35,626 bases of DNA from Thermoplasmata archaeon (GCA_030037265.1 JASHRQ010000054.1:1-35626); one strand, 5' to 3'; counted from the first letter of the stretch, positions 14,702 to 21,896 are shown. A program made the numbers and translations. Notes: generated from the sequence alone by a model not told the origin.

Positions 14702-17700
14702 TTACGGGGCGCTGGAGGACCGCCGCGCGGCGCGTCGGCGGCTCGCCGCGTCCTCCGGCGGGTCCTCGTCGGGGTCGTCCAGCGACGTCCCCCGCGCGGC
14801 GCGGCTCAGCGAGGCGAGCTGCTCCAGGTCCCGGTCGACGTCGGCCGACCGGCTCGCCGGCTCCCGGACCCGGACCGCCCCGGGGGCGGGCCCGCTCCGT
14901 CGGTCCTCGGTCATCTGCGACAGCTGGCGCACGAGCGTGAGCCAGACGCGGCCCTGGTTGGCGATCGACCCCTCGACCCGGTCGCGGATCTCCCGCGTCC
15001 GCTCGGTGAGCTCGGTCTCGAGCCGCCGGATGTCCTGCGAGAACTCCCGCCGGAGCTCGGCGTACTTGAGCTCGGTCTCGGCCGGGCCGGCGGCCCCCCG
15101 CTCGAGCTCGGAGATCCGGGTCCACGACTTCCGCACCACCGGGACGAGCCGGTCGGTGAGGACGACGATCCGCCGGTCGATCTCGTCGAGCTCGGCGCGG
15201 AGCGCGTCGTCGAGCCGCGTCGCCTCCCGGTTCCGGTCGGCGACCTCCTGGACGAGGGCCTCGAGCCGGCCCACGACGTCGCTGTGCTCCCGCGCGAACC
15301 GCTCCTCGGCGGCCATCGCGCGGAGGTCCATCAGGTGCTGCATCTCGTTGCGGAACGCCTCCGCGCTGCGCTGGAACTGCTCGCGCGTCGCCTTCTCGAC
15401 GAACGCCACGTCCGGTATCCGGGCGATCGCCGCCTCGGTCTCCCCCTTGAGGCGGGCCAGGAGCTCGAGGTACTTCTCGCGCTCCCGGTCCAGGCTCTCG
15501 GTCCGCTTCTGGTCGGCGTACGACTGGAGCCGCACCTGGAGGTCGGCGACGGCGTGCATCTCCGCCTCCCGGAGCTCCTCCATCTTCGAGTCCGCCTTGC
15601 GGTCGATGCGCCCCTCGAGCTGCGCGAGCTGCTCCTCCGCGCGCGCCGTCGCGCGCGCCTCGGCCTCCCGGAGCGTGGCCTGGACCCGCTCCTGCACCTC
15701 GCGGGCGCGCCCGTCGACGAGCAGCGAGAGCCGCCGCTCGGTCTCCTGGGCCTCCTTGCCGTGGCGCTGGTCGGCGGCGGCCAGCCGCTGGTCGACGAGC
15801 GCGGTGAGCCGCCGCTCGAGCTCCCCCCGGCCGGACTGCTCCCGGTCCTGCGACTCCCGGAAGTGGAGGTCGAGCTGCGCCATCATCGCGCCCCGGAGGT
15901 CGGTCTCCGACGCGGCGGCGCGCTTCTTCACGTCCGCCATCGCGTCGCCCAGCTGGGCCTGCAGCTGGCCCTTCGCCGCCTCCGAGGCGGTGCGCACCGC
16001 CTCGGCGGACCGGTCCCGCACCTCCTTGAGCTTCGTCTCGAGCAGCGTGCGGACGCTCCGGTCGAACTCCTGGGCGACCAGCGCCCGGAGGTCGGCGCGG
16101 ACGCGCTCCTCGCTCTGCGCCACGCGGCTCGTCGAGTCCTGGCCCAGCCGGGCCTCGAGCTCGGCCGCGCGGGCGAGGAGGCGGTCGGTGAGCGCCGTGA
16201 GCGCCTGCTGCTGCTGGCCGCTCCAGTCGGCCATCCGGCGCTCGAGCCCGGACTTCACCTCCTGGATCGTCGCGGCGTCGCGGGCGGCCTGGTCGGCGAG
16301 GGCCGGGGTGAGCCGCTCCTTGACGGCGGCGTCGACCTGCCGGCCGTCGAGCCCGGTCGGGGCCGGGGGAGGCGGAAGCGCCTGGAGCCGCGCCTCGACG
16401 AGCTGGGAGAACTGCGACAGGAGCCGCTCCTCGAACGCCGCGCTCCACGCGGCGGACGGGGGCGCCGTGGCCGCGGCGAGCCGCTCGTCGAGGTACCGGA
16501 GGATGTCCGCCTCGACGACGCGACGCAGCGCCATCGCATCGGCGATCGGCCCGCCGTCCGGGGCCCGGCCGGCGGGACCCGCCCGGTCGGCCGCCGGCAA
16601 CAGGGACGGGTCGTCCTTCACCGAGACCGGCACGGACTCGACCTTCGCGCCGCGCGCCGCGGGGACCGGGGCCGGTCCGCCGCGCTGGAGCCACGGCGGG
16701 AGCTGGCCGGCCGCCGGGCTCTCCACCGGGGGCGGCGCCGGGGCGGGCGGGAGGTCGCCGACGGCGATCTCCTCCGCCGGCTCCTCGCCGGCGTGGGCCT
16801 GGAGATACTCCTGCGCGCGACGGGACAGCTCCGGCGAGAGGTCGAGCCGGCGGCCCCGCGGCTTCTGGAGGAGCAGGGCCGCGCTCTCCATCGCCGTCGA
16901 GAGCCGCCACATCTCCTTGCGGCGGTCCTTCCCGCCCTGGCGCTCCGGGTCGGCGAGCCGCTGGCGGAGCGTCCGCAGCTCGACCCGGTCGACGCGCTCG
17001 GTGACCGGCGCGAGCTTCGCGAGCGCGTGGTCGCGGACGTACTGCACGATCAGCGGAGCCGACTCCTTCCCGCGCCCGCCGGAGCCCGGGACCCCGTCGG
17101 CGACGTCGTAGAGCGTCACCGGCGCCTCGAGCCAGCTCTGGACCCGCTTGCGGTACCGCTCGCCGGTCGCCTCCCCCTTCGGCACCCGGAGGACGCCGAG
17201 CGCGAGCGGGATCTGCTCGGAGAACTCGGCGAAGTTCACCTTCGGGGCCGGCAGGAAGTACGGGAAGGCGAGCACCGCCCCGAGGGCGAGCAGCGACGCC
17301 GGCAGGAGCCGGACGTACTCCAGCACCGCCTCCATCGCGGCCTCCCAGTCGTCCCCGCAGATCGCGACCACCGGCTCGGTCGAGCCCCGGTGGAACAGGA
17401 ACCCCTCGCCGAGCAGCGAGACGAGCCGGGGGTCGGGGGACGGGACCGGGCGGCGTTCCTGGCGGCCGCCCGCCATCGACTCGTACCAGCGGAGCACGGC
17501 CTCCCCGAAGCTCGGGGCGGCGAGGAGCCGGCCCGTGTCGAGGACGAGCGCCTTCATCCCGAGGCGCGGCCGGTCCTCGGTGGAGAGGAACATCCGGCCG
17601 AGGCACGTGTAGGTGCCGCCGTACGCCGGGAACAGGAACAGGTTCCGGTAGTAGGAGAGCGGCAGCGCCGGGTCCGGGTCCCAGTAGTCCTGGGTGTCGG

Positions 17701-17896
17701 CGACGTTGATCGCGAGGTTGCCGACGATCCGGATCGCCTCCATCGTCTCGCGGTAGCCGGGGAAGTCGTCCGGGAGGGCCGTGTAGCCGGGGCTCTCGGC
17801 CTCGTTGTCGACCTGCCGGCACCAGACCACGGCGACCGGCTCGGTCGAGCCGGCGACGACCCCCCCGGGGTCGGCCCCGCGCGCGTCGTCGGCCAT
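14702..17896 (-). CDS. Large coiled-coil protein with globular N-terminal domain (partner of vWA/GTPase genes)
   Basis: The 1064-residue product has three parts. Residues 1 to about 330 are globular, with VAVVWCRQVDNEAESPGYT, a block around YRNLFLFPAYGGTYTCLGRMFLS, and a hydrophobic LLPASLLALGAVLAFPYFLP near residues 195-215. That hydrophobic block may be a buried helix-strand rather than a membrane anchor. Residues 330-445 are a Pro/Ala-rich linker. Residues 445 to about 1000 are almost pure charged heptad sequence, a very long coiled coil rich in Glu, Arg, Ala and Leu, ending in a disordered basic tail. I do not recognise the N-domain. Its ATG overlaps the GTPase stop (TGATG), implying coupled synthesis and probably a complex. 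The layout suggests a scaffold or tether driven by the GTPase; that is inference. Confidence 0.85.
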   Translation of the reverse strand: MADDARGADPGGVVAGSTEPVAVVWCRQVDNEAESPGYTALPDDFPGYRETMEAIRIVGNLAINVADTQDYWDPDPALPLSYYRNLFLFPAYGGTYTCLGRMFLSTEDRPRLGMKALVLDTGRLLAAPSFGEAVLRWYESMAGGRQERRPVPSPDPRLVSLLGEGFLFHRGSTEPVVAICGDDWEAAMEAVLEYVRLLPASLLALGAVLAFPYFLPAPKVNFAEFSEQIPLALGVLRVPKGEATGERYRKRVQSWLEAPVTLYDVADGVPGSGGRGKESAPLIVQYVRDHALAKLAPVTERVDRVELRTLRQRLADPERQGGKDRRKEMWRLSTAMESAALLLQKPRGRRLDLSPELSRRAQEYLQAHAGEEPAEEIAVGDLPPAPAPPPVESPAAGQLPPWLQRGGPAPVPAARGAKVESVPVSVKDDPSLLPAADRAGPAGRAPDGGPIADAMALRRVVEADILRYLDERLAAATAPPSAAWSAAFEERLLSQFSQLVEARLQALPPPPAPTGLDGRQVDAAVKERLTPALADQAARDAATIQEVKSGLERRMADWSGQQQQALTALTDRLLARAAELEARLGQDSTSRVAQSEERVRADLRALVAQEFDRSVRTLLETKLKEVRDRSAEAVRTASEAAKGQLQAQLGDAMADVKKRAAASETDLRGAMMAQLDLHFRESQDREQSGRGELERRLTALVDQRLAAADQRHGKEAQETERRLSLLVDGRAREVQERVQATLREAEARATARAEEQLAQLEGRIDRKADSKMEELREAEMHAVADLQVRLQSYADQKRTESLDREREKYLELLARLKGETEAAIARIPDVAFVEKATREQFQRSAEAFRNEMQHLMDLRAMAAEERFAREHSDVVGRLEALVQEVADRNREATRLDDALRAELDEIDRRIVVLTDRLVPVVRKSWTRISELERGAAGPAETELKYAELRREFSQDIRRLETELTERTREIRDRVEGSIANQGRVWLTLVRQLSQMTEDRRSGPAPGAVRVREPASRSADVDRDLEQLASLSRAARGTSLDDPDEDPPEDAASRRRAARRSSSAP

Positions 17897-19089
17897 CAGT
17901 CGCCCCGGCGCGCGGGCTCCTTCGCCAGCAGGCGCTCGCAGATCCGGGCGAGCGGCAGCGGGGTGTTGACCATCACGGGGACGCCGCCGGCCGCCGGCGG
18001 CGAGGCGGGGGGACCGTCGGCCGCCGGCTCGACGGTGCCCGAGTCGGTCCACAGGAGCGGGCGCCCTTCGCCGGTCGACACGGCCGAGGAGACGAGGAAG
18101 ACGTCCTCCTTCGTGGAGATCGCCTGGCCCTGCTGCGCCATGAGGATCGTGCCCATCCCGGCGCCGTCGCGCCGGACGAGGAAGTCCTGGGAGTCGAACG
18201 CGCTCTGGTAGGTGCGGTCGCGGAGCACCCGGTCGACCTCCCCGTAGAACTCCTTCAGCAGGTCGGCCTTGGACACCGCGACGACGAGTGGCACGTTCCG
18301 CGCCCGCACGTACCGGAACACCCCGCGGGCCAGGTTGACCTGCTGGGCCTGGTCGCGGAGCGACGGGAGGGCGGGGGACAGGAGGAGGATGATGCCGTCC
18401 GCTTCGTGGACGAACCGGCCCAGCAGCGTCAGCCCCCGGCGCCAGAGCTCCTGGCGGTCCGGCCGCCACGTGTCGAAGTGCGGGATCACCCGGCAGTTCT
18501 TGTCGTCGACCTGCCCGTCGGCGGAGGAGAGCCACAGCCGGTCGTAGGTGAAGTAGTCGGAGATGATCCCGCCCGCCTCGTCGATCGTGTGGAGGATCAT
18601 CGGCCGCGAGCCGGGGGCGGCGGGGTCCGGGCTCCCGAAGCGGAAGCGCATCTTCATCTCGACGAACTGGTTGAACTTCGTCGGGAGCGGGTACTTCGTG
18701 AGCACCCCCTGCTCGTCGCGCGACGCGGCGAGCTCGACCCACAGCTTCTTCGGGTCCTCCATCGGGCGGTTCACGTAGTAGCGCGTCGTCGCCTCGAGGC
18801 TCCCCTCCGGGTCCGTGGGGTCGGTCGTCTCGTACGTCGTCTCCTCGAGGATCACGTCGGTCTCGAGGTCGCCGTAGATCGGGATCGTCCGGGCGTCCGG
18901 GCGGCTCGGCACGTAGGTGATCGGCAGGTTGAGCCCGAAATGGCCGGAGAGGAAGCGGAAGTACGTCGTCTTCCCGGAGGCCGGGATCCCGACCACCGCG
19001 ATCCGGGCCGTCGCCGCCTCGGGCCCCTTCGCGTCGGCCTTCCGCGGGGCGCCCTTCACCCGGGTCTTCGGGGTCGTCTTGACCGTCAT
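17896..19089 (-). CDS. P-loop GTPase-like protein of a vWA/coiled-coil cassette
   Basis: This 397-residue protein has a Walker A loop GIPASGKTT (residues 34-42) after a basic tail, a probable switch II/G3 at DEAGG (170-174), a G4 specificity motif SKAD (273-276, an NKxD variant), and a G5-like SSA (334-336). A long insertion between G1 and G3 (about residues 50-165) is unlike Ras or Era GTPases. It is closer to what I recall of the divergent 'double-GTPase' group found in bacterial vWA-linked conflict systems. Guanine specificity is inferred from SKAD. The C-terminal 50 residues are Pro/Ala-rich. It starts 23 nt after the vWA gene and overlaps the coiled-coil gene by 1 nt. Confidence 0.8.
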   Translation of the reverse strand: MTVKTTPKTRVKGAPRKADAKGPEAATARIAVVGIPASGKTTYFRFLSGHFGLNLPITYVPSRPDARTIPIYGDLETDVILEETTYETTDPTDPEGSLEATTRYYVNRPMEDPKKLWVELAASRDEQGVLTKYPLPTKFNQFVEMKMRFRFGSPDPAAPGSRPMILHTIDEAGGIISDYFTYDRLWLSSADGQVDDKNCRVIPHFDTWRPDRQELWRRGLTLLGRFVHEADGIILLLSPALPSLRDQAQQVNLARGVFRYVRARNVPLVVAVSKADLLKEFYGEVDRVLRDRTYQSAFDSQDFLVRRDGAGMGTILMAQQGQAISTKEDVFLVSSAVSTGEGRPLLWTDSGTVEPAADGPPASPPAAGGVPVMVNTPLPLARICERLLAKEPARRGD

Positions 19090-19112
19090 CGCTCTGCCCG
19101 ACCCCCCCCCGC

Positions 19113-20633
19113 TCAGCGCATCTCCGCGAGGCAGATCTCCATGAACTCGAGCGCCCCGTCGACGGTCGTGTCCCGGCCCACGTTCTTCAGCCGGGTGTCC
19201 TGGAGGAGGCCGAACAGCTCCTCGACGGACTTCTCGTGCTGGATCGCCCCCTCGGCGAGCCCGCCGTCCGGGCTCCCCACGCGGGCGAGTTCGTAGGTCG
19301 TCCTCAGCTCGAGGAGCTTCTCGAAGATCTGCTCGAGCTGTCCGGCCATCGACGGCTCGCGGCGCCGGAGGCGGCTCTCGGTGTCGTCCATGAAGCGGAC
19401 CAGCGTCTCGGTCTCCGGGTCGTTCTGGATGCGGGCCTGCAGGAGCGCGAGCCGCCGGCCGATCCGACCCCGCGCGTCCGGCGGGAGCCGATCCGCCTCG
19501 ACCCAGGCGTGGAGCAGCGAGCGCGCCGACTCGACCACCTCGCCCCGGGCGTAGTGGATCCGGGCCTCCCAGTAGTACCGGGTGAGCGCCGGCAGGAGCG
19601 ACTGGGCTCGGAACAGCCGCTGCATCGCGGTCGCGTAGTCGCGCTGGACGAACGCCTCGACGATCTCGCCGAGCGGGCCGTACCGGTCCTTGAGGTGCGG
19701 GGGGACCACGCCGCCCTGGACCTCGAGCACGTCCACCTCGGACGGCAGCGGGCCGGAGCCGACGCCGTCGTCCGGCGACGCCGGGAGGTCGCTCCGGTGG
19801 TGCAGCTGGGTGACCGTCGCGTGGGCCTGGGGAGCCTTGAGCGCTCGGGCCGCCTTCGCCGCGTGCTCCGCGAGCTCCTCGGGGTGGAGCTCCTCGAGCG
19901 GTCGGGACGTCTCGTACCCGACGTCGATGAAGGCGCTCACCATCTGCGCGAACAGGTCGGTGCTCGTGACGACCTCCTGGTAGGACACCTGGGCGGGGAT
20001 CCCCTGCCCCTGCGCCCGGCCCCGGAGCTCGCTCACGACGCTGTTCATCTGGTCCGCGTCGACCCCCTTATCGCGCTCGGTCCCGGCGCCGATCCCGATG
20101 ACCCGCAGCGTGAGCCGGGAGCCGGACGGGAGGACATACGGCACCAGGTCCTGGCGCGCGCTCGTCTCGGGCGTCAACGGCCGTCCCGTCGGGGCGCGGA
20201 ACCGCCCGGAGGCGTTGTCCCAGCCGTCGGTGACGAGGACGAGGGTGCCCGAGACCTCGCCGGACGGCGTCCGCAGGAGGTCCGCGCCGAGCGCGAGCCC
20301 GTCCCAGATCGCGGAGCGGCCGTTCGGCGTCAGCATCGAGATGAGGCTCTCGATGTACGGCAGGTTCTCGCGGTGGATCTCCGTGAGCGGCACCGCCACC
20401 CGGACGACGTCGGTGAACGTCACGAGACCGAACGACGCGCCGGACGACTCGGCGTTCTCGAGGATCCGGTACACCGCCGTGCGGGCGACCTCGATCTTCC
20501 GACGCTCCCCCTGGAGGCCCGTGGGGTCCGGGAGCGGCGCGAGCATGCTCTTCGACAGGTCGAGGACGAGGACGTGGCGCAGCGGCTCGGGGACCGCCTC
20601 GGCGGGTGGCGGACGGGCTTCCACCATGCTCAC
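19113..20633 (-). CDS. von Willebrand factor A domain protein with helical C-terminus
   Basis: The 506-residue protein has an N-terminal vWA domain with a complete MIDAS metal site: DLSKS (residues 25-29, DxSxS), Thr102 in MLTPNGRSAIWDG, and Asp136 in LVTDGWDN. Such domains bind divalent metal and mediate regulated protein-protein contacts. From about residue 280 on, the sequence is helical, with TPR-like units (VEAFVQRDYATAMQRLFRAQ, YYWEARIHYARGEVVESARS). It ends in a helical tail with CLAEMR. It has no signal peptide and so is cytoplasmic. The GTG at 20633 is the first start after an in-frame stop; an ATG two codons later is equally possible. It is the first gene of the cassette, with a TATA box at 20731-20737 and a leader of about 70 nt. 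Confidence 0.88.
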   Translation of the reverse strand: MSMVEARPPPAEAVPEPLRHVLVLDLSKSMLAPLPDPTGLQGERRKIEVARTAVYRILENAESSGASFGLVTFTDVVRVAVPLTEIHRENLPYIESLISMLTPNGRSAIWDGLALGADLLRTPSGEVSGTLVLVTDGWDNASGRFRAPTGRPLTPETSARQDLVPYVLPSGSRLTLRVIGIGAGTERDKGVDADQMNSVVSELRGRAQGQGIPAQVSYQEVVTSTDLFAQMVSAFIDVGYETSRPLEELHPEELAEHAAKAARALKAPQAHATVTQLHHRSDLPASPDDGVGSGPLPSEVDVLEVQGGVVPPHLKDRYGPLGEIVEAFVQRDYATAMQRLFRAQSLLPALTRYYWEARIHYARGEVVESARSLLHAWVEADRLPPDARGRIGRRLALLQARIQNDPETETLVRFMDDTESRLRRREPSMAGQLEQIFEKLLELRTTYELARVGSPDGGLAEGAIQHEKSVEELFGLLQDTRLKNVGRDTTVDGALEFMEICLAEMR

Positions 20634-21095: not shown

Positions 21096-21896
21096 GTGCC
21101 CCGGGCCGCTCCGCCCTCGGTCGTCGACTTCCTGGAGGCGGAACGGGAGTTCCGTGGGTGGACGGGCCGGGTACGCCGCGTGACGGGCGCCCGGGTCGTG
21201 ACGAGCCCTCAGTTCCGCGACCTCCTCGTCGCGAACCAGGTGCTGGTCGGGGCGACGGACGCCCCGGTCGGCTGGGAGGAGATCGAGCGCGAGGCCGAGC
21301 CCGCGTTCCGGGCGCTGGGCGTCCGCGGCCGTCGGGCGATGCTGTTCGGCGACGAGGTCGACCGACGCCTCGGCCCGTCGCTGCGGGCGCGGGGGTTCCG
21401 GGAGCGCGCGCTCCGGCTCCTGACGTACCGGGGCTACGCGTCCGTCGCCCCGCGACCGGACGTCCCGGTCCGGTGGGTCGACCCGTTCCTCTGGCCGGCG
21501 CTGTTCGCCCTCCGGTACCGCATCGAGGAGGAGGCGCACGGCCCGGGGCGGGAGGCGTCCGAGCGGACGAGCCTCTACTCGAGCCGGGCGGACTCGGCCT
21601 GGCGCCGGTCGTACGCGGCGACGTTCGGCCCCGAGATGGCCGGCTCGTGCGACGTGGTGCGGATCGGTTCGATCGCCCAGGTCGCCGGCGTGCAGACCGC
21701 GCCGGAGTGGCGCGGGCAGGGGATCGCCACCGCCGTCGTGAGCCGCGCCGTCGAGGAGACGCTGCGGGAACCGGTCCGCGGGATCTACCTCACGACCCCC
21801 ACGGCGGCGCTCGCGGACCAGCTGTACGCCCCCCTGGGGTTCGCGCCGGCCGCCACGGTCGCGATCTACGAGCGCGCGGCGACGGGGCCGGGCTGA
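21096..21896 (+). CDS. GNAT family N-acetyltransferase
   Basis: The 266-residue protein carries a C-terminal GNAT domain. Acetyl-CoA binding motif A is visible as VAGVQTAPEWRGQGIATAVVSRAVEE (about residues 206-231, with the R/QxxGxG/A core in RGQGIA). Motif B is YAPLGFAPAATVAIYER at the end. The N-terminal 130 residues are a separate alpha/beta region of unknown role, possibly a second, degenerate GNAT-like half. The substrate cannot be predicted. The GTG start lies 12 nt after rps17e, so it is likely co-transcribed with it. It converges with the aIF6 gene. Confidence 0.83.
   Translation: MPRAAPPSVVDFLEAEREFRGWTGRVRRVTGARVVTSPQFRDLLVANQVLVGATDAPVGWEEIEREAEPAFRALGVRGRRAMLFGDEVDRRLGPSLRARGFRERALRLLTYRGYASVAPRPDVPVRWVDPFLWPALFALRYRIEEEAHGPGREASERTSLYSSRADSAWRRSYAATFGPEMAGSCDVVRIGSIAQVAGVQTAPEWRGQGIATAVVSRAVEETLREPVRGIYLTTPTAALADQLYAPLGFAPAATVAIYERAATGPG

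Follow-up and report, generated by a model that had tools for sequence, protein, structure and literature searches.

The window analysed here, a 35,626-nucleotide stretch of DNA from a Thermoplasmata archaeon (GCA_030037265.1, JASHRQ010000054.1:1-35626), carries three adjacent, intact minus-strand genes, which we refer to as the trio. They encode a von Willebrand factor A (vWA) protein (20633-19113; 506 aa), a P-loop GTPase (19089-17896; 397 aa), and a protein with a globular head and a long helical rod (17896-14702; 1064 aa), henceforth the rod protein. The vWA and GTPase genes are separated by 23 nt (19112-19090), and the GTPase and rod genes share a 1-nt TGATG overlap at 17898-17894. This arrangement had been described in an earlier interpretation made from the DNA alone (the sequence-only reading), and its coordinates proved exact. 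Because accidental long open reading frames (ORFs) are common in DNA of 73% G+C, such as a 1240-aa plus-strand ORF opposite the cassette, the reality of the trio frames needed testing. The minus-strand frames were kept in 74 other contigs, and the third-position G+C content of the three genes was 0.97-0.99. Comparison with same-genus relatives gave ratios of nonsynonymous to synonymous substitution rates (dN/dS) of 0.17-0.19 for the vWA gene, 0.09-0.12 for the GTPase gene, and 0.27-0.32 for the rod gene. These data confirmed that the genes are real and under purifying selection, with the GTPase the most constrained of the three.

The carriers of the trio are Lutacidiplasmatales, soil Thermoplasmata known from metagenome-assembled genomes (order-level reference: PMC9287336), including Candidatus Lutacidiplasma silvani. 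In a sample of 106 genomes of the order, 81 had the GTPase and 75 the rod-protein head, which never occurred without the GTPase. The vWA gene preceded the GTPase gene on all 74 Lutacidiplasmatales contigs (74/74), and the complete order vWA-GTPase-rod was observed at 66 of the 74 loci. The contigs retrieved for the other eight showed no rod gene; most of them stop within or soon after the GTPase gene. The co-occurrence proposed by the sequence-only reading thus turned out to be strict across the order, and the three genes did not each belong to a known unrelated family. A GTPase profile run against 300 genomes of the class recovered nothing convincing beyond the family, only two marginal P-loop fragments, and a head profile run against 293 genomes of the phylum recovered no relative beyond it. 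A search for plasmid relatives of the GTPase found none. The sole bacterial match in a scan of the collection, L163 (Zipacnadia), was identified by eye as an unrelated YchF-type P-loop GTPase.

Where flanks were available, rps17e was found at 63 loci and coaD at 61, counts in which some genomes appear twice because two locus sets overlap. This site is shared by most genera, in agreement with the vertical inheritance between coaD and rps17e that had been suggested. In genus g4, the trio is intact but lies at another site. In six genomes of genus g7, the trio is absent, coaD directly adjoins rps17e, and the remaining flanks are conserved; in the related genome L261, the trio occupies this same site. 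In a marker tree built from flanking genes, for which midpoint rooting gives an approximation, the trio-less genomes were nested within trio-bearing relatives and did not form a single clade, which points to at least two clean losses, or to loss and re-gain. Our data show that the trio was co-inherited, co-moved and co-deleted as one unit, with no partial sets seen. The clean losses and the intact relocation therefore indicate that it is dispensable yet indivisible. The three genes are thus a real and previously unlinked module, and their conservation suggests an undescribed GTPase-controlled scaffold.

The GTPase is of a divergent TRAFAC type, as judged by an alignment of 28 homologues, hhalign comparison and dN/dS. 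Its G1/P-loop GIPASGKTT (residues 34-42; 18964..18990, minus strand as for all features below) is nearly invariant, with the consensus GIP[AS]SGKTT. The G3-like DEAGG (residues 170-174; 18568..18582), which aligns with the DIAGE of the so-called double-GTPases (DO-GTPases), and the G4 motif SKAD (residues 273-276; 18262..18273) are invariant, and a G5-like [SA]SA is invariant or nearly so. The long insert after G1 was also confirmed, so that the motif assignments of the sequence-only reading were upheld throughout. Its link to DO-GTPases was examined by profile comparison. Against an alignment of archaeal DO-GTPases, the match spanned the complete domain together with its long insert (P=1.7e-9, score 71), whereas controls from the same organisms gave lower and local scores (GPN-loop, 33; TrmE-Era-Obg, 48-52; reversed DO-GTPase, 17). 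Among the profiles tested, the GTPase therefore appears nearest to DO-GTPases. Pfam returned sub-threshold P-loop matches only, with DO-GTPase2 appearing in 5 of the 28 homologues (best E=0.044) and the DO-GTPase cut-off reached by none. Moreover, the invariant glutamate of DEAGG sits elsewhere than that of the DxAGE motif in most archaeal DO-GTPases aligned, and the DxAGE glutamate is not in place. Because the Pfam cut-off failed and DEAGG stands instead of DxAGE, we refer to the protein as DO-GTPase-related rather than as a DO-GTPase. Single-sequence searches of the PDB found nothing for it, and profile searches gave P-loop fragments or chance matches.

The rod protein is laid out as a globular head (to about residue 345), a proline/glycine-rich linker (about 375-450), a helical rod of about 550 residues, and a disordered tail. 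The head was modelled with AlphaFold2 using 51 homologues, with a predicted local distance difference test score (pLDDT) of 89 and a predicted template modelling score of 0.89. Secondary structure assignment by DSSP gave the elements β-β-α-β-β-β-α-α at residues 22-167, β-α-α-β-α-β-α-β at 176-265, and helices at 282-365. The order β-β-α-β-β-β-α-α is the longin topology. The first region is therefore a predicted longin-type domain (β1-β2-α1-β3-β4-β5-α2-α3; 17396..17833), as judged by the model, Foldseek and the alignment. The predicted secondary structure of the second (17102..17371) is that of an α/β domain resembling the central DENN domain, and the third (residues 282-345; 16862..17053) is a predicted all-α region that is d-DENN-like in position. 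This predicted order matches that of the DENN module, in which a longin domain, an α/β sandwich and an all-α domain follow one another (PMC3521125). In Foldseek, the first PDB match of the head was a 365-residue chain of the C9orf72-SMCR8-WDR41-ARF1 complex (E=0.005, probability 0.47, 337 columns), and comparison with a Lokiarchaeal longin gave a probability of 0.51 and a root-mean-square deviation of 4.5. The head also had many AAA, CED-4 and ORC matches, possibly owing to the likeness between the DENN domain and a minimal P-loop α/β domain (PMC3521125). We regard the Foldseek support for a longin/DENN-like head as suggestive, a lead with a coherent pattern in which no single value is decisive. 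R27, R101, R109 and R111, all within the longin-like domain, are invariant in the alignment.

The helical rod (about residues 455-1005; 14882..16534) was evaluated by Fourier analysis with shuffled sequences. Its mean power at a period of 11/3 was 27.7, exceeding all 200 shuffles (maximum 23.7). The hydrophobic period was near 3.7-3.8 (about 3.75, or 15/4) at residues ~540-800 (window 15500-16280) and near 3.5, heptad-like, at ~860-1000; most homologues peaked at 3.64-3.78. Periods near 3.67-3.75 are those of hendecad or pentadecad coiled coils, which are of the right-handed type. The sequence-only reading, which had described a 1064-aa protein with a globular N-domain and about 550 residues of coiled coil, was thus accurate as to layout, but a heptad pattern does not hold outside ~860-1000. 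Complete homologues of the rod protein ranged from 562 to 1319 aa, and this variable rod length argues for a tether or spacer over a fixed lattice.

The vWA gene has a GTG start with an in-frame ATG two codons later, and its product matched Pfam VWA_2 (E=2.5e-9); single-sequence searches of the PDB gave weak vWA matches only. In the vWA domain (about residues 19-235; 19929..20579, from Pfam and the alignment), D25-x-S27-x-S29, S107 and D136 are invariant among 29 homologues, which makes the metal ion-dependent adhesion site (MIDAS) complete, as had been claimed. The accompanying claim of TPR-like repeats was not confirmed: the part following the domain looks helical, and Pfam finds no TPR match in it.

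We propose that the trio forms one GTPase device, in which the regulator, a longin/DENN-like head, forms part of a tether of variable length and the vWA protein serves as adaptor; the function is inferred, and we give this reading a probability of about 0.5. The GTPase, a TRAFAC-type enzyme related to DO-GTPases, would be the switch. The head would be its cognate regulator, binding the switch regions of the GTPase and acting as a GTPase-activating protein (GAP) or a guanine nucleotide exchange factor (GEF), with R27, R101, R109 and R111 as candidate catalytic fingers. Within the C9orf72-SMCR8 complex, SMCR8 is an arginine-finger GAP whose finger comes from its own longin domain (PMC8213707). 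The model of the GTPase matched MglA (probability 0.96), and the GAP of MglA is a Roadblock domain, a relative of longins (PMC3521125). The helical rod may multimerise into a tether or spacer of variable length that carries the head, and the vWA protein, with its metal site and helical tail, may connect the complex with a target protein, or else nucleate assembly. The timing of assembly or release of the rod scaffold would depend on the GTP state, and the envelope, division or polarity are candidate targets.

Several observations weigh against this proposal. The predicted α/β sheet of the head has four strands, whereas that of DENN has five. No PDB fold match of the head or the GTPase passed E<0.001, and TM-scores were low; a comparison with the viral structure library yielded nothing useful, its best match being nameless. 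The head also lacked a PDB sequence match, and none of 28 homologues had a Pfam match, including to DENN. As for the GTPase, the margin of its hhalign score over other TRAFAC groups is moderate, and its AlphaFold model (pLDDT 64) is too weak for conclusions about the fold. Finally, we infer physical interaction among the three proteins from the linkage of their genes only.

A different origin is offered by the GTPase-centric conflict systems of DO-GTPases and GAP1. DO-GTPases normally partner GAP1, encoded downstream, and vWA and coiled-coil proteins are among the possible members of GAP1-N2 systems (PMC7159879). The trio might accordingly be a domesticated, stripped-down version of such a system, with the head as a diverged GAP1 (N+M) and the rod in place of the variable effector; it would continue to sense invaders, with the rod as the means of action. 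The affinity of the GTPase fits this proposal, as does the DO-GTPase gene followed by a GAP1-N2-like gene in related Thermoplasmata. By eye, the head and GAP1-N2 share a β4-loop-β5 with R-x-G followed by a β-α unit, which hhalign repeatedly places alike. However, hhalign comparison of whole proteins and single domains, the GAP1-type check that the sequence-only reading had called for, was not significant (P 0.03-0.28), and none of 28 rod-protein homologues had a GAP1 Pfam match. We therefore claim neither homology of the head to GAP1 nor membership of the DO-GTPase/GAP1 systems. The missed DO-GTPase cut-off and the displaced glutamate likewise speak against this origin. A mobile neighbourhood with variable effectors was not seen, the rps17e-coaD site being fixed in most genera and the three genes constant, and PADLOC gave no convincing model match for the trio; defence is therefore less likely, and the defence-like logic raised before found little support. 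Overall, we consider the domesticated conflict system unlikely.

The trio could also be a housekeeping cytoskeletal or envelope scaffold in which the rod polymerises, the GTPase and vWA protein act as assembly chaperones in the manner of MoxR-vWA modules, and no GAP or GEF relation exists. The long conserved rod with its right-handed-type periodicity and the vertical inheritance are in keeping with this. At one locus of genus g4 (L045:11801-14806; relatives in L043 and L049), a protein of about 1000 aa, predicted to be secreted, Ig-like and C-terminally membrane-anchored, is encoded 25 nt downstream of the relocated rod gene, a hint of an envelope context in that genus only. However, a rod whose length varies more than twofold is awkward for a lattice, the clean losses show that the device is dispensable, and the pairing with a MoxR-type AAA+ ATPase considered previously was not borne out, since no MoxR gene adjoins the trio (flanks rps17e and coaD). 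We regard such a scaffold as quite unlikely. That the three genes share an operon but serve separate roles is very improbable, since the trio was lost and relocated as a whole and no incomplete version was seen.

DO-GTPase genes of other kinds were observed in the genomes compared. Within Lutacidiplasmatales, relatives of the DO-GTPase/GAP1-N2 pair occur in L214 (L214:281-4676) and L215, that is, genomes G096 and G082, both of which also have the trio GTPase. In another Thermoplasmata family, L189:3737-12454 is an operon of an HSP70-vWA fusion, a 1010-aa zinc-ribbon protein, a DO-GTPase2 above the Pfam cut-off, GrpE and HSP70, with a similar layout in L175 and L180; it resembles the HSP70 theme of GAP1-N2 systems, here in archaea. 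A row at L174:6960-16088 encodes a 620-aa protein, a DO-GTPase with N-terminal transmembrane-like segments, a GAP1-N2-like protein and a helical protein of 475 aa, joined in some cases by another DO-GTPase-like protein, 799 aa long. The row also occurs in L188 and L219, and its core pair in L216-L218. Near the trio, a GNAT-like gene lies between rps17e and an eIF6-like gene (window 21096-21896), with a tblastn match in the same-genus locus L053 and none in other loci among the matches listed. Upstream of the vWA gene in genus g2, L051:5042-6301 encodes a protein with a proline-rich linker, a short coiled coil and no Pfam match.

Compared with known systems, the trio is a variant of GTPase-centric systems. 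With DO-GTPase/GAP1 systems (Kaur et al. 2020, PMC7159879), it shares a TRAFAC GTPase, the long post-G1 insert, a dedicated partner directly downstream and, in some versions, vWA proteins; it differs in its single GTPase, fixed chromosomal locus, DEAGG motif and sub-threshold Pfam score, and has no detectable GAP1 domain, FNIII, GASH, tubulin or effector gene. Eukaryotic longin-DENN regulators (C9orf72-SMCR8, FLCN-FNIP, DENND) have the domain order predicted for the head, which for its part is gene-linked to a GTPase and has invariant arginines in the longin-like domain. In contrast to them, the head is archaeal, is fused to a helical rod, has a partner that is not a Ras/Arf-type GTPase, and shows fold similarity below firm significance and no sequence similarity. 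MglA-MglB, with its Roadblock GAP, follows the same two-gene prokaryotic logic of a GTPase and a longin/Roadblock-superfamily regulator; in the trio, the topology predicted for the regulator is instead of the longin type (permuted), the head is large, a rod and a vWA protein take part, and the GTPase belongs to a different family. MoxR-vWA modules likewise place a MIDAS vWA protein beside a nucleotide-driven switch, which in the trio is a GTPase in place of the MoxR AAA+ ATPase. Four points go beyond the sequence-only reading: the resemblance of the predicted head fold to a DENN module, the loss and relocation of the trio as a block, the period of ~3.75, and the variation in rod length.

The fusion of longin, DENN and d-DENN has been placed in the eukaryotic stem lineage (PMC3521125). 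It is a tentative and still doubtful proposition that non-Asgard archaea possess a full tripartite regulator of the longin-DENN type, encoded in one operon with a switch resembling DO-GTPases and fused with a rod that acts like a tether. If true, the DENN architecture would not be a eukaryotic invention, GAP1 proteins would possibly share the same fold, and the trio would be a prokaryotic counterpart of eukaryotic GTPase-rod tethers. A DENN-like module paired with a GTPase in soil Thermoplasmata would also let the origin of longin-type control of GTPases be studied in a compact and tractable set of three genes, and it would assign a predicted activity, that of a GAP or GEF using an arginine finger, to a family that so far lacks one. 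The trio adds a vertically inherited, non-mobile system beside DO-GTPase systems hitherto read as conflict machinery.

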